A stretch of DNA of 64,000 nucleotides from Xenococcus sp. MO_188.B8. GTDB lineage: Bacteria; Cyanobacteriota; Cyanobacteriia; Cyanobacteriales; Xenococcaceae. This document shows positions 8,163 through 48,828 of this stretch, piece by piece. The translations under genes and the position numbers were made by a program. Every line of letters starts with the position of its first letter. Positions within the stretch are counted from its first letter, which is position 1. The notes under the pieces were generated by a model, which was not told the origin of the DNA, did not search any database, and saw nothing but the letters and a program-made list of their open reading frames with translations. The stretch is from positions 1-64,000 of the forward strand of contig JASJDR010000021.1 of the NCBI GenBank assembly GCA_030065615.1, in the 5' to 3' direction.

Positions 8163-8256
8163 TAATCTTAATGAAAGGCGAAGTTATGTAAGATACTGAT
8201 TTACAATGCCTAGAAAATCTGTACCATAGAAGATATAAGAGCGCAAAAATATTCTC

Positions 8257-8619
8257 ATGACCAATAATAATAATGCTAATGGCAACTGGAAAACTAGACT
8301 AGAAGAATTAGAAGAAGAAATACGCAAAGCAACTTCATCTAAGCAATCTAGCGATCAATCTACCCAAGATGTCTATCCTTATGTGGAAATGGACTCGGAA
8401 ACCTATTTTGCCAAGCGTATCACTGCTTGGATGGAAATGACCCGCGATTGGTTTAAGGCTCTATCCACACCTGGGAAAGTGATCGTGGGGATTAGTGCAG
8501 TTTGGCTAGGATTTTCTCTTCTCAATATGGTTTTGCATCTAATTAGTACTCTCCTTACTGTGGCAATTTTAGGTGTTTTATTTTATTTTGCTTATAATAA
8601 GCTGATTGTTAATAAGTAA
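8257..8619 (+). CDS. Conserved cyanobacterial membrane protein, function unknown
   Basis: The 120-residue protein has a hydrophilic N-terminal half with an acidic coiled segment (TRLEELEEEIRKATSS) and an amphipathic stretch around ITAWMEMTRDWFKALS. A C-terminal hydrophobic region of about 45 residues (IVGISAVWLGFSLLNMV, then LISTLLTVAILGVLFYFAY) fits two tightly packed membrane helices. No enzymatic motif is visible. It is divergent from folP, with 94 nt between the two starts. I know of no function. Confidence 0.65.
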   Translation: MTNNNNANGNWKTRLEELEEEIRKATSSKQSSDQSTQDVYPYVEMDSETYFAKRITAWMEMTRDWFKALSTPGKVIVGISAVWLGFSLLNMVLHLISTLLTVAILGVLFYFAYNKLIVNK

Positions 8620-8668
8620 GTTCAAGGCAATAGGCAATAGGAATTAGATCACTAAGTTTAGATTTTTG

Positions 8669-8765
8669 AGGTTGCTGAATCTAGTTATGCATTGATTTCT
8701 GGCGGAGAATTTTTTTATTTCTATGTGACCGTCTTTATTCATGTTTAAATTCAGCAACGCCAAGT
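8669..8765. mobile_element. MITE-like inverted-repeat element
   Basis: The left end GTTGCTGAATCTAGTTATG and the right end, read on the other strand as GGCGTTGCTGAATTTAAACATG, are imperfect inverted repeats sharing GTTGCTGAAT. They bound about 95 nt with no coding capacity. Cyanobacterial insertion sequences often carry GGCGTTGCTGAAT-type ends, so this is probably a non-autonomous derivative. The same motif occurs alone at 1995-2009. Confidence 0.6.
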
Positions 8766-8869
8766 TTTAAAGATTGTCCACAGATCAACGTAGACTAACA
8801 CAGATGAAGAGCTAAATTCCGAGATAATACTTTGGACAATTAGTAGTTCTTTGTTCCTTAATTTTATAG

Positions 8870-10132
8870 ATGGTGCAAATAGAAGTAATAGGAATTGGCC
8901 TAGATGGTGCGACTGGATTAACAACAAAAACACAAGAAATTATCAAAAAGGCAAGTATTTTGATAGGAAGTAGTCGGCATCTGAGTTATTTTGCATTTCA
9001 TTCTGCTCAGAAAATAAGATTAAATAATTTGCAGCAGAATCTTGACGAAATTGCTCAATTAATTAAGACTCAAGAAAAAATTGTAATCTTAACGAGTGGC
9101 GATCCGCTTTTTTTTGGGTTAGGACGTTTATTGCTAGAAAAATTCCCCCAAGAAAAGTTAAACTTTCATCCCCATGTGAGTTCGATTCAATTTGCTTTTA
9201 ATAAAATAAAAGTGCCTTGGCAAGATGCCAAAATAATTAGTGTTCACGGACGCGACGGTGATGAATTAAGTCAAGCTTTAAAACAGGGAATCGAAAAAAT
9301 TGCGATCTTAACCGATGGGAATTATCATCCAGGCGCGATCGCAAAACTTTATTTATCCTTAGAGCTTCCTGTTAATTATAGATTTTGGATTTGTGAAAAT
9401 TTGGGTGATAATACAGAAAAGATAACTTATTTTACAGGAGCAGAAATTGCTGAATTAGCATTACTTGATCGAGATAGTTTTGCTGCCTTGAATGTGGTAA
9501 TTTTAATCCGAGAATCCTTGAGTAAAGATCCAGTTTATTATCAAAAATTACCCTTAATAGGAATTCCTGATACAGCCTTTTGCAGCTTTCGCGATCGCCC
9601 TGGTTTAATTACAAAAAAAGAAGTTCGTACCGTCATTTTAGGACAGTTAGCATTACAAGCTAAGCAAATAGTATGGGATATTGGTGCCGGGACAGGTTCA
9701 GTATCAATTGAAATTGCTCGTTTATCTCCTAGATCGCAAATTTTTGCTGTGGAAAAAACCGCGATCGGAATATCTTTAATCGAAAAGAATTGCCAAAATT
9801 TCCAAGTTAAGAATATTTCTATTATTAGTGGTAAAGCACCAGAAAATTTAAATCTATTACCAGCTCCTAATCGTATTTTTATTGGTGGCAGTGGGGGAAA
9901 TTTATCTTCTATTCTTGAGTTTTGCCAGGAAAAAATTTTACCTCAAGGAATTGTAGTGATTGCTTTAGCAACTATTGAAAATTGCCATGAAGCATTAGAT
10001 TGGATCAAAGGTAATCATTGGCAATATAGTTTATTGCAATTACAAATATCCCGCTCAGCTTCTGTTGGTTCATTTACTCGTTTTTCGCCACTAAATCCCG
10101 TGACAATTATTACTACTAATCCAAATTTTTAG
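8870..10132 (+). CDS. cobL: Precorrin-6Y C5,15-methyltransferase (decarboxylating)
   Basis: CobL (equivalent to CbiE plus CbiT) methylates C-5 and C-15 of precorrin-6Y and removes the acetate side-chain carboxylate, in B12 ring synthesis. The 420-residue protein joins both parts. Residues 1-200 are the CbiE-type tetrapyrrole methylase (VIGIGLDGATGLT, VILTSGDPLFFGLG). The remainder is the CbiT-type Rossmann methyltransferase with the SAM loop WDIGAGTGSVSIEIARL and GGSGGNLSSIL. The linker TKKEVRTVILGQLAL is typical. No other cob gene is nearby. Confidence 0.94.
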   Translation: MVQIEVIGIGLDGATGLTTKTQEIIKKASILIGSSRHLSYFAFHSAQKIRLNNLQQNLDEIAQLIKTQEKIVILTSGDPLFFGLGRLLLEKFPQEKLNFHPHVSSIQFAFNKIKVPWQDAKIISVHGRDGDELSQALKQGIEKIAILTDGNYHPGAIAKLYLSLELPVNYRFWICENLGDNTEKITYFTGAEIAELALLDRDSFAALNVVILIRESLSKDPVYYQKLPLIGIPDTAFCSFRDRPGLITKKEVRTVILGQLALQAKQIVWDIGAGTGSVSIEIARLSPRSQIFAVEKTAIGISLIEKNCQNFQVKNISIISGKAPENLNLLPAPNRIFIGGSGGNLSSILEFCQEKILPQGIVVIALATIENCHEALDWIKGNHWQYSLLQLQISRSASVGSFTRFSPLNPVTIITTNPNF

Positions 10133-10399
10133 TGACTCTTCTAGAATAGTTATGACAAAATAATATAAATAAGTATCTTCATGTTCTGCTTTGCCGGGTT
10201 TGTAAGATTGTCAAAGACAATTTTAATCAAACTATTTGAGCTTACGAGAGATGGGGTATTATTAGCACAGCTAGTATAAGAGAGCCTTTTTCGTTGTATT
10301 AGTTAAATCTGTGTTTATCTCTCTTCCAAAAGAAGACCTACGGTGTAGACTGATTAAAGAATTAAGCAATCCTATCTAACTTTTATCTAAAAAAATTAA

Positions 10400-11158
10400 A
10401 TGCGCTTATTACCTGTTACTTTAGCGATCGCGCTTTTTTCCTCACCAATGGCAATTGCTGCAGAATTAGCCGAAATTGAAAATCGGGGAAAAATTACCAT
10501 TGCCGTTAAAGATAATCTGCGTCCTTTAGGATATAAAGATAGTCAAGATAATCTCATTGGCTTAGAAATTGATATTGCCCGGCGTTTAGCCGAAGAAATT
10601 TTAGGTGATGCCGATTCGGTTAAATTAGTACCAGTCAGTAATCAAGACCGTTTAAAAGTAGTTATTGATGATGAAGTTGATATTGCGATCGCCAGAGTCT
10701 CGGATACCGCATCTCGTCGTCGTATAGTCGCTCTCAGCCCCCACTATTATCTAGATGGTACAGGAATTATTACCAAAGATATTACATTTGCTAAAGCCGA
10801 CGACTTAAGAACAGGTAGAATTGCGGTACTATACAATTCGACCACTATTGCTGTGGTTCGTCAACGATTACCCCAGGCAGAGTTAGTAGGAGTTTCTTCC
10901 TATCAAGAAGCATTAGATCTCTTAGAAGCAGGGGAAGTTAATGCTTTTGCTGGTGATCGTACTGTTTTGGCTGGTTGGCAGCAAGAATATTCTCAATATC
11001 AATTGTTACCAGAAAGATTATCTGGTGAACCTTTATGTATAGTCATGCCCAAAGGAATACAATATCAGCCCTTACGTAACAAAATTTATAACGCGCTTTT
11101 AGATTGGCACAAATCAGGATGGTTACAAGAAAGAATTGAATATTGGGGACTACCTTGA
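10400..11158 (+). CDS. Periplasmic substrate-binding protein, amino-acid type
   Basis: The 252-residue protein begins with a signal peptide (MRLLPVTLAIALFSSPMAIA, then AELAE). It continues as a type-2 periplasmic binding domain of the SBP_bac_3 family: GKITIAVKDNLRPLGYKD, GLEIDIARRLAEEIL, VDIAIARVSDTASRR, and AGEVNAFAGDRTVL. Such proteins deliver polar amino acids to ABC transporters. No permease or ATPase gene is adjacent, so it is an orphan component or a sensor-like solute receptor. It reads in the same direction as the Ycf37-like gene 55 nt downstream. Confidence 0.82.
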   Translation: MRLLPVTLAIALFSSPMAIAAELAEIENRGKITIAVKDNLRPLGYKDSQDNLIGLEIDIARRLAEEILGDADSVKLVPVSNQDRLKVVIDDEVDIAIARVSDTASRRRIVALSPHYYLDGTGIITKDITFAKADDLRTGRIAVLYNSTTIAVVRQRLPQAELVGVSSYQEALDLLEAGEVNAFAGDRTVLAGWQQEYSQYQLLPERLSGEPLCIVMPKGIQYQPLRNKIYNALLDWHKSGWLQERIEYWGLP

Positions 11159-11213
11159 CATTTAGCATTTAACAGTTCACATTTACCATTTAAGAATAAA
11201 TAATAATTTAGCT

Positions 11214-11747
11214 ATGGATGAAAATTTACCTTTAATTTATATTTCTACTTTGATAGGCATTTTACTAGTTGCTGCCATTTTTATTTTAAAAGAAGTAATT
11301 AAAACTCGTCTGAAGGAAAATAAATTTGGTAAGTTACAAAAAAAACTTAAACAAGAAAAAGGTACAGCTCAAGAATATTATGAATTGGGAAGTTTGTATC
11401 TTGAGAAAAAACTTTTTGTGCAATCTTTAACTCTGTTTCAAAAAGCACTCAAAGATAAGGAAATAGAACCTGAAAATAAAGCATTAGTCTATAATGCGAT
11501 CGGCTATTCTTATTTTGCTCAAGAACAATATGATATTGCTATTCGTCAATACAAAGAAGCTTTAAAAATCTATCCAGAATATGTAATTGCACTCAATAAC
11601 TTAGGTAATGTCTACGAAAAGAAACAAATGATTGTCAAGGCAGTAGAAACCTATGAAGAAGCATTAAAATACGAACCAAATAATAAAACAGCTAGTCGTC
11701 GTGTAGAATCGCTCAAAAAACGTTTAGTCACTAACGATTCTGAATAA
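11214..11747 (+). CDS. ycf37: Ycf37-like TPR protein (photosystem I assembly/stability)
   Basis: An N-terminal membrane anchor (LIYISTLIGILLVAAIFIL) is followed by EVIKTRLKENKFGKLQKKL and three tetratricopeptide units: YYELGSLYLEKKLFVQSLTL, VYNAIGYSYFAQEQYDIAIR and ALNNLGNVYEKKQMIVKAVE. At 177 residues, this anchor-plus-TPR layout and the LQKKLKQEKGTAQEYYELG junction match cyanobacterial Ycf37, a thylakoid protein that supports photosystem I accumulation. The family assignment is from pattern memory. Confidence 0.8.
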   Translation: MDENLPLIYISTLIGILLVAAIFILKEVIKTRLKENKFGKLQKKLKQEKGTAQEYYELGSLYLEKKLFVQSLTLFQKALKDKEIEPENKALVYNAIGYSYFAQEQYDIAIRQYKEALKIYPEYVIALNNLGNVYEKKQMIVKAVETYEEALKYEPNNKTASRRVESLKKRLVTNDSE

Positions 11748-11972
11748 TATCAGCTCTACTAAACATAGTGTGCCGAATTAATTAATATTTGTTTTAGGCA
11801 ATCAGCAAAAATCACCATAAAAATAGAAGGAGAATATTTACAAGAACGAAAGTAAGTAAACATTAAAAATTACTTCGCCATTACTATGATTATGTTATGG
11901 AGTCCTTAGAGCTTGCAGTAAGCTCAAAAGCTGATTCTATATGCTTAAAGTGAAATAAACAATTTAAGTTTT

Positions 11973-14729
11973 ATGAGTAACAGCATAATCACATCTGAGA
12001 TATTGGTAGCTTACTCACAATGTCCTCGCAAAGCATTTCTGCTCCTGTTTGCTGAAGACAAAGGATTATCCAATGAGTACATGCAAGTTTTAGAGCAGAA
12101 AAAGAATAACAATCGGACAAAGTATATAGATTTTTTAAGAAAAAGTTTTCAGATTGAAGCATATAGCCAAAATGCCCTTTACAGGAAAAATGATTATTTG
12201 TTTGAAGTGAATTTAGTAAACAATAGTTTATTAGCTTCTTGCGATCTTTTGAAAAAGGTAGAAGGCAAATCAAATTTTGGCAAATATAGTTATGAAGCAA
12301 TAATTATTAGTGGAAGTTATAAAGTAACAAATGAGCAAAAACTTGAACTTTTGTTTGCTAGTTATGTACTCAAACAGATTCAGAATGAACTTCCTGCAAC
12401 TGGTTCTATCATAAGCTTGGATGGAAAAGTCCATAACCTAGAAACTGCAAAAAGTAATAAAAAACTTAAATCATTCCTCAAACCTTTAAAGGAATGGATA
12501 AAGCATCCGCCTTCTGAAGAAACTCCAGTACTTCTGAATAAACATTGTGCATATTGCCAATTTCAGGCTTCTTGTAGAGATAAAGCTAATAAGTCTAATG
12601 ATCTTAGTTTATTAGATAGAATGACCGCTAAATCAATTCAGAAGTATCACAAGAAAGGGATTTTTACAATTACCCAACTCTCTTATTTATTTAAACCAAG
12701 AAGAAGGAATAAAAAAGCCAAGAAAACTCCCATAAAACATAGTTTTGAGTTGCAAGCTTTGGCACTCAGAACTGGAAAAATATACCTTCAAGAACTACCA
12801 AATCTGGTGAGACAGCCAAAAGAGTTATTTTTAGATATTGAGGGCATACCAGATCAAGGTTTTAATTACCTTATAGGGTTATTAGTATGTGAAGAGGGAA
12901 ATACAGTTTATTACTCATTCTGGGCCAACACAATAAACGATGAAGAGGAAATTTGGCTACAAGTCGTAAACAAAGTAAATGAATATCCTGAAGCACCTAT
13001 TTATCATTATGGTAGCTATGAGTCAAAAGCTCTCAATCAAGTATCTAAAAAATATCAAATTAATTGTGAATTATTCCAGAAACGCCTGATCAATATCAAC
13101 ACATTTATCTATGGCAAAATTTACTTCCCTACAGTATCTAATAGATTGAAAGACATTGGAAAGTTTTTAGGCGCATCCTGGGATAATGATATTTCATCTG
13201 GGATACAGAGTCTCGTCTTTCGATATTATTGGGAAGAATCACAAGATTTAAAATATCAGGAAAGTTTAGTTGCCTATAACGAAGAAGATTGTAGAGCTTT
13301 GAAGCTACTAACTGATAAAATTTCTGAAATCATTAAGACTGCTGATGACAATGCAGATATTGATTTTGCAAATTCACCCAAGCAAGTTTCTACAGAACTT
13401 GGTACTAAAATTCATAATCAATTTGATACTATACTTAAATTTGCTCATACTGATTATAATCGCAAGAAAATTAGTCTTAATCAAAATAATCTTGAACAGC
13501 AAGAGCAGAGTACAAAGAAATTAAATAAACGTGGAGGTCATCTAGGTCATTCCAGAAAAGTTCCCAAAGCTAGAAAAATTGTTGATGTTCCAATAAAGCT
13601 CAAATGTCCTAGGTGCGTGAATGAGCCTCTTCAAGAATCAGCTAAAATGATCGAACGAACTATGATTGATCTAGTTTTTACTAAAAATGGATGCAAAAAA
13701 ACAATCATAAAATATATCGGTGCTAAAGGTTATTGCCAAAAATGTTATCGTTATTATGCTCCAGATTTTCCAGAGTTTATTACCAATTTCAGTACTCAAT
13801 TATTTGGTCATAGATTTCAATCATGGGTGATTTATCAAAGACTTGCTCTTCGTCTGCCTTACAGCGTAATAGCTCAAACAATCGAAGATTTATTTTCTGA
13901 GAGTATAAGTCAAGGAAGTATAGACTATTGGTTGAAAAAATTTGCAAAATATTATTCAGAAACCGAAAAATTATTAACTGAAAAAATTTTGACAAGTCCT
14001 TTTATTCATGCAGATGAAACACCAATCAATATTAGAGGAAGCAATCACTATGTATGGGTCTTTACAGATGCCAAGCACGTTGTTTTCAAGATGACTGAAA
14101 CAAGAGAGGCAAATATTGTTTATGATTTTCTAGGTGATTATAGTGGAGTTCTAGTCTCGGATTTTTATCCGGGATATGATGGCGTTAAATGCAGACAGCA
14201 AAAATGTTGGGTTCATCTTATCAGAGATCTCAATGACGATCTCTGGAAAAATCCTTTTGATACTGATTTCGAAGCTTTTGTCTTGGAAGTCAAGAATTTG
14301 ATTTTACCGATATTAGAAACAGTTGAAAAATATGGATTAAAGCATAGGCATCTTAGAAAATTCAAAAAAAATGTGGATATATTTTACAACAATACAATTA
14401 ATAGGACTTATTATTCCGAGCCAATCTTAAAATATCAAAAAAGATTTGAAAGATATAAAGGAAGTCTTTTTACTTTTCTTGAGCAAGATTTTATTCCTTG
14501 GAACAATAATATGGCGGAAAGAGCTATTAGACATCTTGCCGTACAAAGAAAAATATCGGGGTCTTTCTCTAAGTCTGGTGCTAGTGCATATTTAACCTTA
14601 CTCGGAGTTATGCAAACTTGTAAATTTCAAAATAAATCACTGCTGAAATTTCTTCTGTCACAACAGAAAGATATAGATCAATTTAAAGAGTCCAGGCGTA
14701 CTAAAAACTCAGCGGTAGCAAAAAGCTAA
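11973..14729 (+). CDS. RecB-like nuclease / RNase H-like exonuclease / IS66 transposase fusion
   Basis: One 918-residue frame joins three modules. Residues 1-205 are a TM0106-type RecB-like PD-(D/E)XK nuclease with a Cas4/AddB-style cysteine set: C17, C192, C195 and C201. Residues about 280-445 are a DEDD-type RNase H-like exonuclease (LFLDIEGIPD near 286, YHYGSYESKAL, YNEEDCRAL near 434). Residues 510-900 are an IS66 DDE transposase: a CPRC/CQKC zinc-binding part, HADETP near 680, SDFYPGYD near 730 and the third acidic residue in NNMAERAIRHL near 846. No IS66 helper genes (tnpA or tnpB of IS66) are adjacent. I searched the flanks by eye for terminal inverted repeats and found none convincing. 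All catalytic motifs look intact. Confidence 0.85.
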   Translation: MSNSIITSEILVAYSQCPRKAFLLLFAEDKGLSNEYMQVLEQKKNNNRTKYIDFLRKSFQIEAYSQNALYRKNDYLFEVNLVNNSLLASCDLLKKVEGKSNFGKYSYEAIIISGSYKVTNEQKLELLFASYVLKQIQNELPATGSIISLDGKVHNLETAKSNKKLKSFLKPLKEWIKHPPSEETPVLLNKHCAYCQFQASCRDKANKSNDLSLLDRMTAKSIQKYHKKGIFTITQLSYLFKPRRRNKKAKKTPIKHSFELQALALRTGKIYLQELPNLVRQPKELFLDIEGIPDQGFNYLIGLLVCEEGNTVYYSFWANTINDEEEIWLQVVNKVNEYPEAPIYHYGSYESKALNQVSKKYQINCELFQKRLININTFIYGKIYFPTVSNRLKDIGKFLGASWDNDISSGIQSLVFRYYWEESQDLKYQESLVAYNEEDCRALKLLTDKISEIIKTADDNADIDFANSPKQVSTELGTKIHNQFDTILKFAHTDYNRKKISLNQNNLEQQEQSTKKLNKRGGHLGHSRKVPKARKIVDVPIKLKCPRCVNEPLQESAKMIERTMIDLVFTKNGCKKTIIKYIGAKGYCQKCYRYYAPDFPEFITNFSTQLFGHRFQSWVIYQRLALRLPYSVIAQTIEDLFSESISQGSIDYWLKKFAKYYSETEKLLTEKILTSPFIHADETPINIRGSNHYVWVFTDAKHVVFKMTETREANIVYDFLGDYSGVLVSDFYPGYDGVKCRQQKCWVHLIRDLNDDLWKNPFDTDFEAFVLEVKNLILPILETVEKYGLKHRHLRKFKKNVDIFYNNTINRTYYSEPILKYQKRFERYKGSLFTFLEQDFIPWNNNMAERAIRHLAVQRKISGSFSKSGASAYLTLLGVMQTCKFQNKSLLKFLLSQQKDIDQFKESRRTKNSAVAKS

Positions 14730-39724: not shown

Positions 39725-39808
39725 ATGACTAAGCCAACGCAAATTAATTCAATGGTGGCACCATTGGACGATCTAAGTGAATTGGCAAAAAACAAAATTA
39801 CGGAGTAA
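39725..39808 (+). CDS. Tiny ORF (27 residues) directly before the protease gene
   Basis: The frame opens MTKPTQINSMVAPLDDLSEL and ends AKNKITE, 4 nt before the protease ATG, with its stop overlapping the GGAG ribosome site of that gene. It has no Cys, Trp or aromatic residue, so it is an unlikely thioether or quinone substrate. It may be a coupling leader peptide or chance. Confidence 0.25.
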   Translation: MTKPTQINSMVAPLDDLSELAKNKITE

Positions 39809-39812
39809 GAAT

Positions 39813-40874
39813 ATGGCTACTATACACAACAAAAAATTAAGCGATTGTAGTGCAGAAGAGATCCGAGAAGAACTACACCAACGAGAATGCGAATCAGATT
39901 CTTTAGCTAAAAATAAACGGAATTTGGCTGAGTATGATTCAACAACATTGCAAAAAGAATTAAAACGTTCTCAAAAATTAGTTTATGGAGTAGATGATCG
40001 CCAAGACTTATATCAAGTTGCAGATCGACGCATACAGACTTTAGCTGACAGTGTGGTTAGTTTAATTGATATCAGTCGTATTTCTGATAATGGCAATGGT
40101 AGTTCGACAATCTCAACCATTCCTTTTCGGATATCTAATAATCTATGTGATGGCGAACGCTTTCGGGAACAACCAACTGCTCCTCGTTGTTCGGGATTTT
40201 TAGTGGCTCACGATATCGTAGCCACTGCGGGACATTGTATTAATCAAAATAACCTAGCACGCAATCGGTTTGTATTCGGTTTTCGCATGATTAATGAAAC
40301 TGAAGCTAATGTGGTGATTTCTAACAATGATATTTTTCGGGGAGTAGCCTTAATTGTCCGTGAAGAAATATCTACTGGGGCTGATTTTGCTTTAGTTCGT
40401 TTAGATCGTCCCGTAACAGGACATACTATTGTGCCGATTCGACGTTCGGGCAAAATTGACGATGGCGAAGATGTTGTTGTGATCGGACATCCATCAGGAT
40501 TACCTCTCAAATTTGCTAATGGGGCTCAAGTTCGAGATAATTCACCCTCTAGTTTCTTTGTCGCTAATTTAGATACCTATGGCGGGAATTCTGGTTCTCC
40601 CGTTTTCAATGAAGATGAAGGTGTTGTGGAAGGAATTTTAGTACGGGGAGATGCGGATTTTGATCGGTTAAACGGATGTTTCGTATCTAATGTTTGTCCT
40701 ACCACTGGTTGTCGAGGAGAAGATGTAACTCGCACCACAGAATTTGCTGACTCTGTTCCAGAAACCGTTACGGAACCTCAACTTAATTTAGAAAGCCGCG
40801 TGGCTCATTTAGAAACAGCAATTGAATCAATTGCCAGTGACATCAAAGCAATTAGGGAAAGTCTTGGAACCTAA
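39813..40874 (+). CDS. Trypsin-like serine protease
   Basis: The 353-residue protein has a charged helical N-terminus (EEIRELHQREC-like, about residues 10-60) that could be a propeptide. The V8-like marker VYGVDDRQDLYQV comes next. The chymotrypsin-fold triad is H141 in TAGHC, D191 in GADFALVRLD and S260 in GGNSGSP. A Cys-containing loop (CFVSNVCPTTGC) and a C-terminal coiled coil (LESRVAHLETAIESIASDIK) follow. There is no Sec signal. ATG at 39813 has GGAG 7 nt upstream. It is the first gene before the LodA-like protein and may process that system's product. Confidence 0.85.
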   Translation: MATIHNKKLSDCSAEEIREELHQRECESDSLAKNKRNLAEYDSTTLQKELKRSQKLVYGVDDRQDLYQVADRRIQTLADSVVSLIDISRISDNGNGSSTISTIPFRISNNLCDGERFREQPTAPRCSGFLVAHDIVATAGHCINQNNLARNRFVFGFRMINETEANVVISNNDIFRGVALIVREEISTGADFALVRLDRPVTGHTIVPIRRSGKIDDGEDVVVIGHPSGLPLKFANGAQVRDNSPSSFFVANLDTYGGNSGSPVFNEDEGVVEGILVRGDADFDRLNGCFVSNVCPTTGCRGEDVTRTTEFADSVPETVTEPQLNLESRVAHLETAIESIASDIKAIRESLGT

Positions 40875-40958
40875 TAATTAATGCTTAATACTTTTGGCGA
40901 ACTTAACATTCGCTATTCTTCTAATAACAAATACTAGGACTGTAAAATCCTCAATCAT

Positions 40959-42410
40959 ATGTCTTCTAGCTCCCATTTAACCATTGAAGAAATCTGGATT
41001 TGTCCCCCTTTATCCTTTGCTCGGTTTGGCCAATCTCCTTATCCGATGGAGAATTTTCACTGGGCAGAAAATGACTATTCTCCAAGGGGAACAGCAGAAA
41101 CCGTTATTGAACCAGCCTTGACCTTTAATATTGATGCCAATAGCAATATTTCTGCCTATTTGCCTGAGGAAATTCGTTTTAAAGATAATGGAAAATGGCG
41201 ACCCGTTTGTCCATTTTTTGAGTTGCATGGACGTTTATCAGACGGCAGTGAAGGGCCTATTGGGTTGAATGAATTGCAAGCAGCTGGATTAAGTCTGAAA
41301 AATATTGTTTGGCAAATTAGGGTCGCTAATCGTAAAGCCTATCATTACACTTTAGCAGAAGGCGATCGCGTTGAAGCCAATGTGACCATTTCCGGGGAAG
41401 ATCATCGCATCCATCCCTTGTTAGGAAGCAGCCCCCAAGATGCAGATAATCCCCTAATTCCTGAAGGAATGTATATTCCCTTGGGTCAGATTAGAGTGAT
41501 TCGACCTAATCCCACTTGGCCAGAAGTCCGATTGCGGATTACGCCACCCCAAGGCTTAATTTATGCCCCCAGTAACACCAGTGATCGAGATTTAAGCGCA
41601 TTAGTTCCACCAACCCAAAACCAAGCCGCGTTCTTGCGACATATTAATTGTTTCCTTAACCCCCAAGCCGCTTGGCCCAATTGGGAGCTAGGCTCAGGAG
41701 CCAACAGCGATCCCCGAACCAATCCAGGAGGCTTATATGCCCAGGATTCCCAAGGAAACAGCCTGGGATTTATCGATGATTCTAATGATGGACTGATTCA
41801 AGTTACCTTGACTGGAACAGGCGTAGGCAAGGAATTAACCGCCTATGCTCGTTATACCTGTTGTCCCCCAGATTTTCAACCAGATCGCCGTCCCTTTGTC
41901 TCCATTGCTGATGGGTTAAGCGACTTGACCAAACGGGAAGAAGTCTTGAGAAGGGGTTATATTGATGGAGCTAACTGGGCTGAAACCGAGGAAGAAATTG
42001 CCGATTTGATGCAGCGAGTCAGAGAGACCATGGAAGCATCTAATCTAGATCATCAAAATCTGCGATCGCAATTGGCCAATCCCAGTCCCAATGGCGAAAA
42101 GATTTTCCCCTTTGAACCAATGGAACCACGACCTGGACATCCCCTACCCTTAACAGAATTAGGTCGTTCTAATCATGCCAGATTTCTCGCCTACGAGGTC
42201 TTTAAACAAAGGTTAGGACAAAGACCAGAATTATTTGAGAAGTGGATTCGTAAACCCACCAACGAACCAGAACCTTACAACGAACAAATGCCAGCCTTGA
42301 TGAGAGGATCAGATTCTTCCCCAATGTTCATCTCCCAACGGCAATATTACTTGATGAAGGAATGGTTAGACGTAGTGCAAAATAATCCCCAAGAAGGAGG
42401 AGAATCCTAA
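40959..42410 (+). CDS. Short LodA/GoxA-like protein
   Basis: The 483-residue protein follows the LodA/GoxA family (cysteine tryptophylquinone amino-acid oxidases) in order. It has an SFARFGQSP opening like LodA's ARVGNSP, then IVWQIRVANRKAYHYT (family: WTVHLANKKA), DPRTNPGGLY, FIDDSNDGLIQVTLT (family: DDxSDGPV), ARYTCCPPDFQPDRRPFVSI (family: PPDFAPxxxxVVTL) and a final MPALMRGS with ISQRQYYLMKEWLDV (family: TxxQYxxLxxWA). LodA is about 730 residues. Here the C-terminal catalytic part is much shorter and has no Cys after the CCPPDF pair, so a canonical quinone is unlikely. It lies 2 nt before the radical SAM gene. I infer a scaffold or substrate protein. Confidence 0.75.
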   Translation: MSSSSHLTIEEIWICPPLSFARFGQSPYPMENFHWAENDYSPRGTAETVIEPALTFNIDANSNISAYLPEEIRFKDNGKWRPVCPFFELHGRLSDGSEGPIGLNELQAAGLSLKNIVWQIRVANRKAYHYTLAEGDRVEANVTISGEDHRIHPLLGSSPQDADNPLIPEGMYIPLGQIRVIRPNPTWPEVRLRITPPQGLIYAPSNTSDRDLSALVPPTQNQAAFLRHINCFLNPQAAWPNWELGSGANSDPRTNPGGLYAQDSQGNSLGFIDDSNDGLIQVTLTGTGVGKELTAYARYTCCPPDFQPDRRPFVSIADGLSDLTKREEVLRRGYIDGANWAETEEEIADLMQRVRETMEASNLDHQNLRSQLANPSPNGEKIFPFEPMEPRPGHPLPLTELGRSNHARFLAYEVFKQRLGQRPELFEKWIRKPTNEPEPYNEQMPALMRGSDSSPMFISQRQYYLMKEWLDVVQNNPQEGGES

Positions 42411-42412
42411 AA

Positions 42413-43798
42413 ATGAAGCTTACCGCACCCGATGGGACTGATTCAAAACTTACTCCTTCATCTGCTACCCCTTCCCCATTATTTCGTGATTTTCATTTAT
42501 TTGAGAGTCAGTTGGGTCAACATTTGTTAGTGGTAGATGGTTCCCAGGTATTTGACCTCGATCCATTTTGGGTCGAGCAGTTAAATCAATGGCTAGTAGC
42601 CGAAGAGGTTACCGCAGAAATGATCGCCTTTCGAGACAGCTTTTTAATGTCTGGGGGAAAAATTGCGCTCGATGATACGCCCCTAGAACCGCCACCACTG
42701 CGTTCCCTGTCCTTAAATGTTGCCCAAAGCTGTAATCTCGGTTGTCAATATTGTTATGCCGATGCCGGGAAATTTGGCGGTCAGGCTAAATTTATGCCCC
42801 AAGACGTAGCAGAACAAGGAGTTGAGCGTCTGATCGCCGAAGCTGAACCAGGGGTTGATTTAGTGGTGGGATTTATGGGAGGAGAACCCCTACTAAATCG
42901 TAAACTTATTCATCATATTACCCGTTATACCAGCCAACGAGGGCAAGAAACTGGTCATAAAATAAGATTTTCCCTAACTACCAACGGAACCTTGATTGAA
43001 CCTGAAGATGTGGCTCTTTTTGCTACCTATGGTTTCAATATTTCTGTTAGTTTAGATGGTCCCCAATGGCTACACGATCAATTGCGTCCCACTCCCAAGG
43101 GACAGGGTAGTTATGAAGCAGTTTTAAGGGGGTTGGAGAGACTCAAAGCACAACGTCCTGGTCATTTATCAGCAAGGATCACCGTCACTCCCCAAACAGG
43201 GCAATTATTACCGATCTTGCGCCATATTCTATCCTTAGGGTTCGATGACGCAGGTTTTGCTCCTGTTTTAGTCTCACCCAATCCAGATTATGCCTTTGGA
43301 GTGGAAGACTTTCAGCAATTTTTACAGGACATGATTGAATGCGGTCAAGTCTGTCAACAACACCTCTTAGATGGTAAGCGTTTTCCCTTTACTAATTTTG
43401 AAACCGCTCTCCATGAAATACATCGGGGAAGTCATCGTCCCTATCCCTGTGGTGCAGGTGCCGGATATTTAAGCATGAATAGCCAAGGTAAATTATATGC
43501 CTGTCATCGCTTAGTGGATCAGGAACAATGGAACTTGGGTTCTGCCCAAAACGGATCGGACTTTGAGGCGCGACAAGAACTCTTAAAACGCGCTCATGTC
43601 AACAGTATGGAGCCTTGCCGTAACTGTTGGGCTCGTTATCTTTGTGGGGGCGGTTGTTATCACGAAGTCAGTCAACGGGGACGCATTGCCTGTGACTATA
43701 TTCGGGGATGGCTGGAATTTTGTTTAGCCGCCTATGCCGAACTTTCGACAGCTAGGCCAGAATATTTTCTCACTCCTGAGACCTATTTTGTTGATTGA
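42413..43798 (+). CDS. Radical SAM/SPASM protein, QhpD/PeaB-like
   Basis: The 461-residue protein has the SAM cluster motif CNLGCQYC (C107, C111, C114) in LNVAQSCNLGCQYCYADAG. GGEPLLNRKLI and SLTTNGTLIEPEDV follow, as in anaerobic sulfatase-maturase-like enzymes. ISVSLDGPQWLHDQLRP and ARITVTPQT are close to QhpD, which forms Cys-Asp/Glu thioethers in the quinohemoprotein amine dehydrogenase gamma chain. The C-terminal SPASM region supplies auxiliary cluster cysteines (CGAGAGYLSMNSQGKLYACH, CRNCWARYLCGGGCYHE). It is adjacent to the LodA-like gene with a 2-nt gap. It should modify a protein or peptide; the substrate is unknown. Confidence 0.88.
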   Translation: MKLTAPDGTDSKLTPSSATPSPLFRDFHLFESQLGQHLLVVDGSQVFDLDPFWVEQLNQWLVAEEVTAEMIAFRDSFLMSGGKIALDDTPLEPPPLRSLSLNVAQSCNLGCQYCYADAGKFGGQAKFMPQDVAEQGVERLIAEAEPGVDLVVGFMGGEPLLNRKLIHHITRYTSQRGQETGHKIRFSLTTNGTLIEPEDVALFATYGFNISVSLDGPQWLHDQLRPTPKGQGSYEAVLRGLERLKAQRPGHLSARITVTPQTGQLLPILRHILSLGFDDAGFAPVLVSPNPDYAFGVEDFQQFLQDMIECGQVCQQHLLDGKRFPFTNFETALHEIHRGSHRPYPCGAGAGYLSMNSQGKLYACHRLVDQEQWNLGSAQNGSDFEARQELLKRAHVNSMEPCRNCWARYLCGGGCYHEVSQRGRIACDYIRGWLEFCLAAYAELSTARPEYFLTPETYFVD

Positions 43799-43889
43799 AG
43801 TTTAGTAGGAGTCCAACGGCTGTTACCCCCTAAATTATGAATGAAATGAATTAATTGATCAATTAATTACCAAATTGAGAGATTGGAAC

Positions 43890-46010
43890 ATGAGTCAAAA
43901 TAACAAACCTCTTCGTCCGTCTTCGACCCCTGAAGATCCCAAAGCTTGGAAGATTTTTCCCCGTAACCTAACTGCCCGAGCCGCTTATATTGTACCTGGA
44001 AACCCTACCAGTAGCCGACCAGAGGATGGTGTCGATAATAGCTATCCAGGGTTAGAAATGGATGCCCGTAACCTGCAAAAATACTTCTTTCCTGGCCTAT
44101 ATTTTGAAGTATATCGAGACAATGGGGCGCGACTCGCAGGACTAACACCACCGGATCGAGCTGCTCAGTGGCTTAATTTAGGCTTAAGAGAAGAGGATCT
44201 TCAGAACAATTTATACTTGTGGGTTCTGCAAGGAAAAACTGCCGCTGCTCAAGATGCTAACCATCCTCCAGCTATTGACTTTGTGAAGACCCAAGGTTTA
44301 GGAGGATTATATGCCTGGCGTAAAATTAATGCCTTGTTTCCTGGTAAAGTTGCCGTGGCGATCGGACCGGAACCCCCTGCTGCTGGCGAAAAACTGGAGG
44401 CAGCAAAAGCTAAATTAGCTGAGGCTTGGCAGCATAATCAAAGTTCTGTCCAACGAGATGGAGTGGGGAAATTGGAATATGCGATATTGATCGCTCAACG
44501 TGCAACCTATCTCAGTCAGGAAGGAGTGCTCGATCCTGATGTTTATCAACCAGGAGAACTAACCCGAACCCTTTGTACGCCTTGGACTTATGATTTTCGG
44601 GACTGTCAATGTTTCTATTGGGCTTCTAATAAACCCGATGTTAGCAGTGGGGAAGATGATAAATATCCTTATCTGAATTTTCAACGCAAAAACTGGCAAG
44701 TTGACCCCCAAACTGAGGATATTGCCAATAGTTATCAAGCCCGTCGAGACCGTGAGATTGACTATGCAGAGATGATGATTGATTGGGAACAGTTGCGTCC
44801 TGTGGTCAATGGTCGAGAATGTGGTCAATCCTATAAACCAGAAGCTTCTCCCCAAGGACCGATTCTCACCTTAGAAGAAATTAAAACAGAATTGACTTAT
44901 TTGGCAACGGTAGAACATGCCTTAGCGGTGCAATATCTCTATGCTTACTATTCTGTTAATACCACCTATGAGGAACCAAACGATCCCGATCTCAGAACCT
45001 TTCGCCTCTGGAAAGGGGCTAACGAAATCTTTAAAATTGCCATTGATGAAATGCGCCATTTGCGTTGGGCTAATCAGGTATTAAAACTATTAGGAGCCCC
45101 AACTATTGTTAAACGGGCTGCTAAGCTGGGGCGACGTTTCCAAACTCCTTTCTATTTACAAAGTTTGACTAATACTCAATTACAGTGGTTTGTGGATGTA
45201 GAAAGGCCGAGTCGTTCGACCATTATCGGACTGGATGGGATGTATGTCGGTATTCAAACCTCCTTACAGCGACTCTCAGCTCAGGAAATCGATCCCGAAA
45301 TTCAACGCCGTGCCGTGGAAATCATTAAGCTGATTATTGATGAGGGAGAAGGTCATTATGTGCGTTTTAGTACGGCTCAACAAAATTTAGCCTTCTATGA
45401 TAATTCAGGACGGGGATATGATGATAACGGTCAGCCAATTTTACCTAGCTATATTCGTTCAGGAAATTGGAGTCAACAGAGTGAACCCCGACCTGATGTA
45501 CCTGGTGGTGTACTTTATGGGGCACCCCATCGGGAAACCCAAGATCCCGAAGGAATTAAATTACAGCTCCAAAGCGATGTACTTTATTTTACCTTGTTAG
45601 TCTTGTTAAAAATTGCCTTTGCCATGGAAGATGAACGTATTAGCGGGGCATCTTTACGTCAGGCGATCGCTTGTATGTTCAAGATGAATGACATTAATTT
45701 CCAACTGGCAGCCAAGGAAATGACCCCGTTATTTACCATTCCTGAATGGTGGGAAAGTGATCCCCCTGTGACTTCTCAAAATGCAGCTCATATATTGTTT
45801 GAAAAGGCCAAACAACAATTGATAGACTCAGGAGTGATCCAAAGTCCCGAGTTTGTCCAGAAGTTAATCCAACCCTCCTTAACCCAGTCCCGTGCTTTAC
45901 AAAATCCAGTCTTGACTCAAGTTTTAGGTAAACAGCATCAAGAAAGCATCGAAGATGTGATTGCCTACTTTGACCATGCCATCGATCAAACGTCTTATGA
46001 ATCAGTTTAA
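43890..46010 (+). CDS. Ferritin-like diiron protein (VioB-like domain) with LodA-neighbour N-terminus
   Basis: The 706-residue protein has two parts. Residues about 15-75 (IFPRNLTARAAYIVPGNPTS, NSYPGLEMDARNLQKYFFPG) resemble the openings of proteins encoded beside lodA genes. From about residue 325 is a ferritin-like four-helix domain of the iminophenyl-pyruvate-dimer-synthase type. Likely iron ligands are seen in ELTYLATVEHALAVQYLYAY, EIFKIAIDEMRHLRWA and IIDEGEGHYVRF, which provides the Glu/His pattern of a diiron site. A C-terminal helical region follows. The ATG at 43890 is preferred over a TTG 15 nt upstream. It overlaps the flavoprotein gene by 14 nt. Oxidase or oxygenase chemistry is inferred. 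Confidence 0.72.
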   Translation: MSQNNKPLRPSSTPEDPKAWKIFPRNLTARAAYIVPGNPTSSRPEDGVDNSYPGLEMDARNLQKYFFPGLYFEVYRDNGARLAGLTPPDRAAQWLNLGLREEDLQNNLYLWVLQGKTAAAQDANHPPAIDFVKTQGLGGLYAWRKINALFPGKVAVAIGPEPPAAGEKLEAAKAKLAEAWQHNQSSVQRDGVGKLEYAILIAQRATYLSQEGVLDPDVYQPGELTRTLCTPWTYDFRDCQCFYWASNKPDVSSGEDDKYPYLNFQRKNWQVDPQTEDIANSYQARRDREIDYAEMMIDWEQLRPVVNGRECGQSYKPEASPQGPILTLEEIKTELTYLATVEHALAVQYLYAYYSVNTTYEEPNDPDLRTFRLWKGANEIFKIAIDEMRHLRWANQVLKLLGAPTIVKRAAKLGRRFQTPFYLQSLTNTQLQWFVDVERPSRSTIIGLDGMYVGIQTSLQRLSAQEIDPEIQRRAVEIIKLIIDEGEGHYVRFSTAQQNLAFYDNSGRGYDDNGQPILPSYIRSGNWSQQSEPRPDVPGGVLYGAPHRETQDPEGIKLQLQSDVLYFTLLVLLKIAFAMEDERISGASLRQAIACMFKMNDINFQLAAKEMTPLFTIPEWWESDPPVTSQNAAHILFEKAKQQLIDSGVIQSPEFVQKLIQPSLTQSRALQNPVLTQVLGKQHQESIEDVIAYFDHAIDQTSYESV

Positions 46011-47127
46011 GGTTATTTCAACCACAGCAGTTCCCATTGCTGTGGTTGGTCAAAGTTTGACGGTCTATGCTGTCGCTGCAGCGTTAAGTCAGTTGGGTTA
46101 TGCTTGTACGTTAATTCATAATCCAAAAACTCTACAGTTTGCCGGACCGTCTTTAGTGCTCAATGATGTTGGTCAAACTTTGTTGCGGGAATTGTTTGGC
46201 GAGCTCAATTTTGAGCAGCTCGCTCAGCGTTTAACTTATCGTTGGGTGCGTTGGGGACAAGAAACGGACTCAGAACAGGTCTATCAACCTGCTTGGGTCA
46301 TTCCTTACTCTGTTTTATTAAACCAAATACTACAGTCCGAGATCATGCAGTCTGTTTCGATTGCTGATTCAAGGCAGATGACACTCCAGCAGTTGTCTAA
46401 TGATTATGCTTGGACAGTTTATGGGAGTCAACAACAAGCCGCTCTCACTATGGCAGAAACTCTTGATATCTTCCCTGGCGGGCAACGAGTAATGATAACG
46501 GCTGAGATTCCTCATGAGAGCTTAACCTTACGGGACAGTTGTTATATTGAATCCTTACCTAACGGTTGGTTGTTTTACGCACCCCTTGATGGTGATTCGG
46601 GAATACTTCAAGCTTGTTTGCCTAAGTTACCCATAAATCCGCGACGGGCTTTATTAGATTGCTTGTATTACAGTCAGCTAATTAGCCCTTTAGTTAACCA
46701 TCTCGATCAGGTGCGCTGTTTCCCTGCTGCTCCCTGTTTGCAGTTACCTCTTTATGGTTCAAGATGGCTGATGGTTGGGAATCCTGCGGTTAAGCTCGAT
46801 CCGATAAGTGGTGAAGGAACACCTTTTGCGCTCCGCACTGGGATTTTAGCGGCTGCAGTTATTGATGGTATTTTACAAAATTCTACTACCGCAGATGCTT
46901 TGTTAAATCATTATCAAACTCGCTTAACTCATTCATTCCTGTCTCATTTACAAGGATGTAGTAAATACTATCAACCTGTATTAGGCAATCATGAGTTATG
47001 GCAAGGTGAAATTAATCAGATGATTAATACTGGTCAGAATTTATCAAGTCGATTAAAACAACAAACAAACCTCAATCTAAATTATCAATTAATTGGTTTG
47101 AAATTGCAGGAACTTGCCCCAAACTAA
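45997..47127 (+). CDS. LodB-like FAD-dependent oxidoreductase
   Basis: The 376-residue protein has an N-terminal dinucleotide-binding strand-helix (IAVVGQSLTVYAVAAALSQL) in which the usual GxGxxG is degenerate. The conserved second FAD motif is WLMVGNPAVKLDPISGEGTP followed by FALRTGILAAAVIDG. This is the fold of LodB, QhpG and tryptophan halogenase-like monooxygenases; LodB and QhpG hydroxylate the Trp that becomes the quinone cofactor. ATG at 45997 overlaps the ferritin-like gene by 14 nt, so translation is coupled. The degenerate FAD loop makes activity less certain. Confidence 0.75.
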   Translation: MNQFKVISTTAVPIAVVGQSLTVYAVAAALSQLGYACTLIHNPKTLQFAGPSLVLNDVGQTLLRELFGELNFEQLAQRLTYRWVRWGQETDSEQVYQPAWVIPYSVLLNQILQSEIMQSVSIADSRQMTLQQLSNDYAWTVYGSQQQAALTMAETLDIFPGGQRVMITAEIPHESLTLRDSCYIESLPNGWLFYAPLDGDSGILQACLPKLPINPRRALLDCLYYSQLISPLVNHLDQVRCFPAAPCLQLPLYGSRWLMVGNPAVKLDPISGEGTPFALRTGILAAAVIDGILQNSTTADALLNHYQTRLTHSFLSHLQGCSKYYQPVLGNHELWQGEINQMINTGQNLSSRLKQQTNLNLNYQLIGLKLQELAPN

Positions 47128-47412: not shown

Positions 47413-48828
47413 ATGAATCCTAATCCCTTTTTAAATCTTGAATATGAACCAGAGGTCGAGCATAACTTAGGAGCAGACTATTATGATGTAGTTCCAGCAG
47501 CAGAATTTCCCATACATATTTTACGATTTCGTAATGATCGTCTACTGCCAATCTTAAAATTAAATCCTGAACAAGTCAGCGATCAAGATTTTATCGAAGC
47601 TTTTGGCAAATTTCAGATCCAACAACCTTTTCTGGCTTTACGATATCATGGCTATCAATTTGGTCAGTACAATCCCTATTTAGGCGATGGGCGAGGTTTT
47701 CTGTATGGACAAGTTAGGGGCAATGATAATATTCTCTATGACTTTGGTACTAAAGGTTCGGGGAGAACACCCTATTCCCGGACAGCAGATGGCAGATTAA
47801 CCCTCAAAGGAGGGGTAAGAGAGATCTTAGCAGCAGAGGCATTACATCAGTTGGGAGTAAGAACTTCTAGATGCTTAAGTATGATCGAAACAGGAGAATC
47901 CTTATGGCGTGGTGATGAACCTTCACCGACTCGTTCCTCAGTAATGGTAAGATTTAGCCGTTCCCATATTCGTTTCGGAACTTTTGAAAGGTTACATTAT
48001 TTGCAGCGTCCTGATTTAATTCAAAAATTATTAGATCGCGTTATTGCTGTTTATTATCCCCATCTTGCTCGGACAGCGGAAAAATATGCTTTATTTTATG
48101 CAGAATTGGTGACTAGAGTTGCCGAATTAGTTGCCCAATGGATGGCTGCGGGATTTTGTCACGGAGTCTTAAATACTGACAATATGTCGATTACAGGGGA
48201 AAGTTTTGATTATGGACCCTATGCTTTTATTCCGACCTATAATCCTCAGTTTACTGCAGCTTATTTTGATTATGGAGGACGCTATAGCTATGGGAATCAA
48301 CCTTTTATCTGTAAGCTAAATTTAGAGATGCTGCAATTACCTCTGGCAATGGTAATGTCAACCGCAGATTTAGAAGCAGGATTGGCACAGTTTGATGATT
48401 GCTATAATGCTACTTACGAAAAATTAATGATCCAAAAGTTGGGGTTTCCTGATATATTTGTTCCTCAAGCAGCCGAGTTATTAACTGAGACGATTAACTT
48501 ACTGCGTAATAGTGATTTGGGATATCATAATTTTTTTGCCGAACTCGCTCAATGGTTTAATGATGGTTGGCGAGATCATCATGATTTGATATTAGAAAAT
48601 GCTTCTTTTACTCAAGAAATCGGAGATAACTGGAAAAAACTATATCATATTTGTTTAAATAAATTAGCATCATCAACCATGGCAGAAATACGCGATCGCT
48701 TATCTTTTAACAATCCCAAAACGGCTTTACTCCGGCCTGTAATTGAATCTATTTGGCAACCTATTGTAGAAACAAATAATTGGCAACCTTTTTATGACTT
48801 AATAAAAAAAATTCAACCTAAAAATTAA
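47413..48828 (+). CDS. selO: SelO/YdiU-family protein AMPylase
   Basis: SelO is a pseudokinase-fold enzyme that transfers AMP to Ser, Thr or Tyr of redox proteins. The 471-residue protein has [20 protein letters not shown]-like text, [60 protein letters not shown] (catalytic-loop equivalent with the metal-binding Asn and Asp) and [13 protein letters not shown]. The length is normal for cyanobacterial members. The C-terminal selenocysteine or Cys seen in some SelO proteins is absent here. Confidence 0.92.

Follow-up and report, generated by a model that had tools for sequence, protein, structure and literature searches.

A candidate split LodA-type cysteine tryptophylquinone oxidase encoded with QhpD-like and QhpG/LodB-like maturation proteins in a cyanobacterial genome

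Introduction

Cysteine tryptophylquinone (CTQ) is the cofactor of the lysine and glycine oxidases LodA and GoxA, each encoded beside a flavoprotein (LodB or GoxB), and of QhpC, the gamma subunit of quinohemoprotein amine dehydrogenase (QHNDH), which is matured with the help of the radical SAM protein QhpD, the flavoprotein QhpG and the protease QhpE. The CTQ residues of LodA are C516 and W581 (PMC4417212). In QhpC, the CTQ is formed by Cys37 and Trp43, Cys41-Asp49 has been mapped as a thioether, and the radical SAM protein works ahead of the flavoprotein as well as in concert with it (PMC7876137). The latter paper discusses QhpD and LodA in parallel, each as a system of its own, and describes tryptophylquinone systems as having arisen convergently, by divergent strategies. 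Here we report a gene cassette in a 64,000-nucleotide (nt) stretch of the genome of the cyanobacterium Xenococcus sp. MO_188.B8 (contig JASJDR010000021.1, positions 1 to 64,000; the window, in what follows) that encodes relatives of LodA, of QhpD and of QhpG/LodB together with a ferritin-like diiron domain.

We consider it likely that this cassette specifies a LodA-type CTQ oxidase split into two chains, of which chain B is stapled through thioethers by the QhpD-like enzyme and oxidised at Trp244 by the flavoprotein, with a diiron domain attached. In the literature searched, from which most subscription papers fall outside, no system combining a LodA-like protein with a radical SAM enzyme is described, and the word "radical" is absent from the main text of a survey of the LodA family (PMC4417212).

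A LodA-type enzyme divided over two chains

Positions are given in window numbering, and protein families were scanned with Pfam and NCBIfam. A first-pass annotation, made from the letters of the window, had proposed five adjacent genes for a trypsin-like protease, a short LodA-like protein, a radical SAM/SPASM protein with a C107/C111/C114 triplet, a ferritin-like diiron protein and a LodB-like flavoprotein. The list of open reading frames (ORFs) and the family scan recovered all five at the same positions, all on the + strand, and the family assignments were borne out as described below. The last four genes (40959 to 47127) are spaced by 2 nt and 91 nt and then overlap by 14 nt, an operon-like arrangement. 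Their features are as follows.

40959-42410, + strand: chain A, the N-terminal part of LodA/GoxA, 483 amino acids (aa), without the CTQ residues (weak LodA_N, LodA and GoxA matches)
42413-43798, + strand: QhpD-like radical SAM/SPASM protein (TIGR03906, 290.6 bits)
43890-46010, + strand: chain B fused to a ferritin-like domain, 706 aa (LodA_C, 22.7 bits; Ferritin-like, 51.7 bits)
44040-44042, + strand: chain B residue 51, Ser in the window and Cys in 76/84 relatives
44574-44639, + strand: CTQ/crosslink motif, chain B residues 229-250, with predicted thioethers C229/D235 and C241/D250 and predicted CTQ pair C239/W244 (these six residues invariant in 84/84 chain Bs)
44913-45356, + strand: ferritin-like diiron site, residues E342, E387, H390, E438 and H489 (invariant in 43/43 fusions aligned)
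45997-47127, + strand: QhpG/LodB/GoxB-type flavoprotein, 376 aa, the predicted Trp244 oxygenase (QhpG, 73.4 bits)

The short LodA-like protein had been taken for the core of the system. It holds the N-terminal part of LodA only and is not the core enzyme alone; the CTQ residues lie on the protein that had been read as simply ferritin-like. Window chain A scores 18.3 bits against LodA_N, below the Pfam cut-off of 26.3, and the chain A profile of the cassette matches 19 of 23 LodA control proteins (E 3.4e-11 to 1.9e-4), in support of LodA kinship. We also modelled a homologue in which chain A, chain B and the ferritin module are naturally fused (locus L042; AlphaFold2, mean predicted local distance difference test (pLDDT) 82.1, predicted TM-score (pTM) 0.51). 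The top Foldseek match of this model is PlGoxA (E 5.1e-8), with low TM-scores (0.19/0.27), and its chain A part (residues 6-547) superposes on residues 2-420 of LodA 3wev (VIA-align Z 13.1, root-mean-square deviation (rmsd) 4.1, 322 aligned). As modelled, the chain A part of this fused homologue has the LodA fold, the CTQ domain having been barely tested in the structure search.

Chain B carries the missing C-terminal, cofactor-bearing part of LodA, fused to the ferritin-like protein: residues ~1-310 correspond to the CTQ-bearing domain and residues ~320-700 to the PF12902 diiron domain. The Pfam LodA_C match (residues 210-252) falls below its cut-off of 25, and LodA_C scores in the genome search, 24.8 and 25.2 with neighbours, were marginal to it; compared profile to profile, chain B and LodA_C agree strongly (hhalign 97.0%, E 9.5e-11). 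A phmmer search against the PDB aligned LodA C516 and the corresponding Cys of GoxA with the Cys of PWxxDxxxC, and the chain B equivalents of the LodA CTQ residues are C239 and W244. D235 stands where, according to PMC7876137, tryptophylquinone enzymes have a strictly conserved Asp (GoxA Asp678, QhpC Asp33).

Extra Cys and Asp residues with QhpC-like spacing

C229, P231, W232, D235, C239, C241, Y243, W244, P249 and D250 are invariant in 84/84 chain Bs (L002, a copy of the window, and the truncated L050 being excluded), a count that does not amount to 84 independent events because these proteins are one family with near-duplicates, for example many from Ruegeria. Among 23 LodA-like controls, Cys is found at the equivalent of C229 in 0/23 and at that of C241 in 0/23, while the D250 position is Asp in 7/23 and is therefore less diagnostic than the two Cys. 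The controls were stronger LodA_C matches read by the pattern PWxxDxxxC (23/23 have it), which presumes the CTQ Cys and not the extra Cys and Asp residues; 16 loci from the same LodA_C searches proved to be cassette members and were left out. No radical SAM match was found in the 23 control loci (2.2-3.5 kb each). The window genome supplies a built-in control of its own, an ordinary single-chain LodA (L143, contig C346, 5631-8644, - strand; LodA_N 263.5 bits, LodA_C 135.7 bits; L095 among the controls) that has no extra Cys and adjoins a LodB-like flavoprotein.

Counted from the first Cys, chain B reads C0 D6 C10 C12 W15 D21 and QhpC reads C0 D6 C10 C14 W16 D22, where C14-D22 is the mapped thioether and C10/W16 the CTQ pair. 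The QhpC motif CQPMEADLYGCxDPCWWPAQVPD, or a close variant, is present in 10/10 sequences; these were selected within 10 PF08992 loci using a pattern in which the Cys/Asp/Trp spacing is already assumed (10/10 loci had it). The other crosslink pairs of QhpC we take to be Cys27-Asp33 and Cys7-Glu16. Two candidate crosslink pairs and the candidate CTQ pair of chain B thus have nearly the spacing of the QHNDH gamma subunit, and the place of the Cys of the first QhpC pair is taken by a Ser in the window. This is residue 51 of chain B, which in the relatives that have the Cys stands shortly before PGLE (NCxPGLE), as the first Cys of QhpC stands shortly before PGWE. The three closest Nostoc relatives retain Cys51 and seven loci besides the window are without it; nearby, E56 is conserved in 82/84 and D58 in 84/84 chain Bs. 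Residue 51 marks a possible third crosslink, lost in the window genome.

Maturation proteins and the ferritin-like domain

The radical SAM protein (Radical_SAM, 76.4 bits in Pfam) has the QhpD model TIGR03906 as its best NCBIfam match, at a score under the equivalog cut-off of 453; the PapB model gives 263.6 bits. The Cys triplet of residues 107, 111 and 114 recurs in 86/86 cassette radical SAM proteins, and the full set of three radical SAM and seven SPASM Cys in 85-86 of 86, in the same columns as in 3/3 QhpD proteins. In a tree with only two remote outgroup sequences, the cassette proteins group in their own clade, separate from QhpD (support 0.83). Judged by sequence, QhpD is the nearest described relative, in keeping with the QhpD-like role given to this protein in the first-pass annotation. 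Its predicted activity is the formation of Cys-Asp thioethers in chain B.

The flavoprotein scores 73.4 bits with the QhpG model (NF049967), 35.1 with LodB and 31.2 with GoxB, all under cut-off (240 for QhpG). A homologue in locus L036 clears the curated QhpG cut-off (274.3 bits); PF08992, the gamma subunit family, was not found in the genome of that locus (G390), in a run that had no positive control. The window flavoprotein also matches the peptidyl-Trp dihydroxylase 7ctq (E 1.9e-6), and its nearest relatives by sequence appear to be QhpG and LodB.

The ferritin-like domain (PF12902, residues 340-443) stands above its cut-off of 22.3 bits, and the five ligands listed above, invariant in every chain B/ferritin fusion aligned, agree with the diiron assignment made at first pass. 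The ferritin part of the L042 model superposes on Caulobacter 3hl1 (VIA-align Z 17.5, rmsd 3.2, 229 aligned). A ferritin module is fused to or encoded near the enzyme in 82/89 loci. VioB was considered as the parent of this part and set aside: it matched the window only at E 0.0057, and the matches of the L042 and L062 fusions, taken to E 1, do not include it.

Outside chain B and the radical SAM protein, no examined module has a universal Cys. The best Cys column is 32/70 in the flavoprotein, 16/82 in the ferritin module and 64/85 in chain A, the last being a site shared with PlGoxA ("DDxC") and absent in the window (N in IDDSNDG) and in close Nostoc relatives. Chain A was accordingly rejected as a target of the radical SAM protein. 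A disulfide between this chain A Cys and chain B Cys51 was rejected as well, there being no clear co-loss (both present in 57, one only in 16 and 4, neither in 4; n=81).

Conservation, spread and architecture of the cassette

Scanning of genomes by one peptide pattern, with the best 80 of 166 relatives kept, and of plasmids (9 loci) gave 89 chain A loci, which were profile-searched for five modules (chain A, chain B, ferritin, radical SAM protein and flavoprotein) within 7.5 kb. All five were present within that distance in 75/89 loci, with one module on the opposite strand in 5 of the 75; in one of these five, L012, the ferritin match is weaker and lies in a 909-aa protein. The 14 incomplete loci comprise seven cut by contig ends, four without a flavoprotein match, one without a ferritin match, L007, which has an IS3 element, and L069, in which the radical SAM and flavoprotein matches lie further off. 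The radical SAM protein is found within 7.5 kb in 83/89 loci, the six misses being five contig ends and L069. By tblastn, chain A occurs in 20 plasmid records, and the same 20 hold the 20 best plasmid radical SAM matches, which places the grouping of these genes far from chance; the next five matches shown are Paracoccus QHNDH maturation proteins at ~33%. Gaps between ORFs are at most 100 nt in 59/73 loci, so that there is little space in which an additional peptide could be encoded. The idea that the five genes stay together thus holds for four of them and fails for the protease, treated below.

The nearest relatives of the window cassette are from Nostoc (76-77%), and the same-phylum locus L005 and the Nostoc UHCC 0926 plasmid locus L008 gave identical chain A and flavoprotein matches. 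Among the best 80 of 166, relatives are spread over Cyanobacteria, Planctomycetes, Actinobacteria, Acidobacteria, Nitrospirae, Myxobacteria, Verrucomicrobia and Proteobacteria. Complete cassettes were found in seven of these eight groups, Nitrospirae being represented by one short contig with chain A only. Chain A is present in 3/386 genomes of the window's phylum, the window genome included; the cassette is thus uncommon and scattered, the kind of distribution that a transferred element would be expected to show. No chain A match was found in phage genomes.

Architecture varies among loci. Chain B is fused to the ferritin module in the window, Nostoc, Streptomyces and Ruegeria, all modules are separate in Bradyrhizobium L009 and in myxobacteria, and the ferritin module is fused to chain A in L011 and L088. 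Chains A and B share one reading frame in L075, L081, L085, L090, L093 and L094, and A, B and ferritin form a triple fusion in L042 and L062; the A+B fusions restore the LodA layout.

Two further loci have features of their own. In L007 (Azospirillum), positions 10494-12507 hold a short radical SAM gene followed by an IS3 transposase gene, and no match to chain B, ferritin or flavoprotein was found next to it. In L010, on a Mycetohabitans megaplasmid, an ordinary LodA (451-2403, - strand) lies ~5 kb from the hybrid cassette (7453-14266, + strand).

Proposed maturation and alternative explanations

In the scheme that we favour, chain A would combine with the N-terminal domain of its partner chain B (43890 to ~44820) into one LodA/GoxA-like enzyme. 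Before or during oxidation of the Trp, the QhpD-like protein would staple the CTQ loop by Cys229-Asp235 and Cys241-Asp250 thioethers; the flavoprotein would oxygenate Trp244, to which Cys239 would couple to give the CTQ. The mature A+B enzyme may then act as an oxidase of a primary amine or amino acid, with O2 as electron acceptor, and the adjacent diiron domain could handle H2O2, assist the initial oxidation of the Trp or process the product. The target of modification is most likely chain B of the oxidase itself and not a separate peptide, which would make this a case of cofactor biogenesis and not of a pathway directed at some other peptide or protein. A protein- or peptide-modification system of no described kind had been suggested for this locus; the modification retains its place, now on the second chain, the separate target does not, and we likewise found no matching pathway in the literature searched.

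Several observations weigh against this scheme. Besides the relatedness of the 84 chain Bs, the Asp found at the D250 position in some LodA controls and the LodA scores of the window proteins, under curated cut-offs in Pfam and NCBIfam alike, the possible third crosslinking Cys is not universal and is a Ser in the window itself. The window flavoprotein has a degenerate flavin adenine dinucleotide (FAD) motif (VVGQSL) and GN instead of GD. A degenerate motif is likewise present in its three nearest Nostoc counterparts, which is a warning about full activity of the window copy. The four loci without a flavoprotein match (L035, L043, L065 and L079; n=89) count in the same direction. The geometry of the CTQ loop is uncheckable in the models because confidence is low there, with pLDDT below 50 at residues 228-240 and 244-248 of window chain B, folded without chain A, and 52-56 over the loop of the L042 fusion (residues 761-790). 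Compared directly, chain B and QhpC give an hhalign probability of 1.6% (0.1% in global mode), and 3/200 and 4/150 column-shuffled QhpC profiles score as high. The QH_gamma model NF037958 is matched by the L042 fusion only (E 0.067; 1/4 chain-B-bearing proteins) and is not listed for L062, L093 or window chain B.

We weighed two alternatives that we regard as equally unlikely. The radical SAM protein might modify a separate small precursor, as in ribosomally synthesized and post-translationally modified peptides (RiPPs), with chains A and B as tailoring oxidases. QhpD-type proteins do include peptide maturases such as PapB, an enzyme that makes Cys-Asp thioethers (PMC11002830), and a 27-aa ORF lies at 39725, the start of the interval first annotated. 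This ORF has no relative in 90 other loci and was rejected as a RiPP precursor; moreover, the short gaps leave scant space for a peptide gene within the cassette, if not outside it, and besides the radical SAM protein only chain B, of the modules examined, has universal Cys, with Asp partners. A separate peptide substrate is unlikely because chain A, ferritin and flavoprotein lack a universal Cys and the gaps are short.

Alternatively, the conserved Cys of chain B might serve as ligands of a metal (Fe-S, Cu or Zn) or pair in disulfides, with no CTQ and with the ferritin-like domain as the real oxidase. The CxPWxxDxRxCxC motif is compact enough for a metal site, the diiron ligands are invariant (43/43), and the CTQ loop is modelled with low confidence. 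Yet the CTQ Cys, Trp and Asp align with those of LodA/GoxA and never vary, Cys51 and the DDxC Cys of chain A are not clearly lost together (57/16/4/4 of 81), and the QhpG-type flavoprotein and QhpD-type radical SAM protein would be left without evident purpose. That the locus is an ordinary LodA/LodB operon with coincidental radical SAM and ferritin neighbours, as the kinship of chains A and B and the flavoprotein to LodA and LodB might suggest, is more improbable still, given a radical SAM protein in 20/20 plasmid records with chain A and in 83/89 loci, and extra Cys in 84/84 chain Bs against 0/23 controls.

Neighbouring genes

One feature precedes the cassette.

39813-40874, + strand: trypsin-like serine protease, 353 aa (Trypsin_2, 72.3 bits)

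The catalytic triad motifs of this protein are present (TAGHC, DFAL and GGNSGSP). Homologues 53-55% identical immediately precede chain A in L027 and L055, and further kin were found in L068 (54%) and L009 (48%); at E 0.001, none was matched in the other 86 of 90 loci. We therefore regard the protease as an optional neighbour and not a general part of the cassette. Its proposed role as an analog of QhpE was abandoned, with kin in just 4/90 other loci and a trypsin-like sequence, unlike the subtilisin-like QhpE (PMC7876137). In the planctomycete cassettes L027 (243-1277) and L055 (7871-8926), chain A is 39-41% identical to that of the window, less than the protease, which hints at separate transfer of the protease or at strong constraint on it.

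Clustering of neighbouring ORFs returned mostly antisense ORFs of the core genes, and only the protease and a berberine-bridge-enzyme (BBE)-type FAD oxidase were used. The latter (FAD_binding_4 and BBE domains) immediately precedes chain A in L042 (7405-8964) and has BLAST kin in 21 loci, mostly of the Ruegeria/Bradyrhizobium type, which suggests a sixth gene of one cassette subtype. About 290 nt past the end of the window cassette, a gene for a SelO protein adenylyltransferase (47413-48828) is probably unrelated.

Relation to LodA/GoxA and QHNDH

Direct comparison of chain B with QhpC being weak, the link to QHNDH draws on three things: the motif with its spacing, the maturation enzymes, and a match between the LodA_C and QhpC profiles (hhalign 81.6%, E 1.1e-5; 67.3%, E 5.1e-5 with the ten QhpC sequences), for which 0/200 and 0/150 column-shuffled controls score as high. 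These alignments favour, without proving, common descent of the LodA_C and QhpC CTQ segments. The wider notion that the QHNDH gamma and LodA/GoxA segments (PGxE ... PxxxDxxxC ... WWxAxxP ... WxxLxxV) share one ancestor, with the cassette as an intermediate, a LodA-type enzyme still needing QhpD-type stapling, we hold tentatively, at slightly less than even chances. A PF08992 gamma gene was not found in the window genome or in 18/18 cassette genomes, in runs without a positive control, so that absence is not proven; the same search found the gamma subunit in 4/299 and 7/337 other genomes. A scan of 10 proteins from the cassette and its surroundings matched no diheme alpha or beta family, the genome itself not having been searched for them.

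If the proposed scheme is correct, the cassette represents a third way of making CTQ and, as far as the literature searched extends, the first radical SAM thioether stapling inside a LodA-type oxidase. Two CTQ strategies would meet in one patchy cassette, which makes the question of convergence raised in PMC7876137 testable; if ancestry is shared, the tryptophylquinone systems called convergent would be one family that lost or kept its staples. The analysis also suggests names for proteins now annotated "hypothetical protein", "ferritin-like", "radical SAM" or "tryptophan 7-halogenase", and the natural A+B+ferritin fusions offer single-chain constructs for structure work.

Set beside the described systems, the cassette resembles LodA/LodB and GoxA/GoxB in the predicted fold of chain A, in the C-terminal PWxxDxxxC...W domain and in the adjacent flavoprotein. 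It differs in that the enzyme is in two chains in most loci, whereas LodA and GoxA are single polypeptides of ~600-800 aa, and in the added conserved Cys and Asp, the QhpD-like radical SAM protein and the ferritin domain, fused or nearby; the C-to-W distance is 5 residues in chain B and ranges from 5 to >30 in the LodA controls. With QhpC, QhpD and QhpG of QHNDH it shares near-identical spacing of the crosslink and CTQ residues, the same 3+7 Cys of the radical SAM protein and a QhpG-like flavoprotein, but the CTQ domain belongs to a LodA-like enzyme instead of an 80-residue subunit, there is no conserved leader protease, and a ferritin partner is present. PapB-type ranthipeptide maturases are related SPASM radical SAM proteins that make Cys-Asp thioethers (PMC11002830); they act on small precursor peptides, and the window protein scores lower with their model than with that of QhpD (263.6 against 290.6 bits). 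PF12902 proteins such as Caulobacter CC_0557 (3hl1) have the same fold and diiron ligand pattern as the window domain, and fungal LodA-like genes also adjoin PF12902 ferritin-like genes (PMC4417212); in the window, the ferritin-like domain is fused to the CTQ chain itself.

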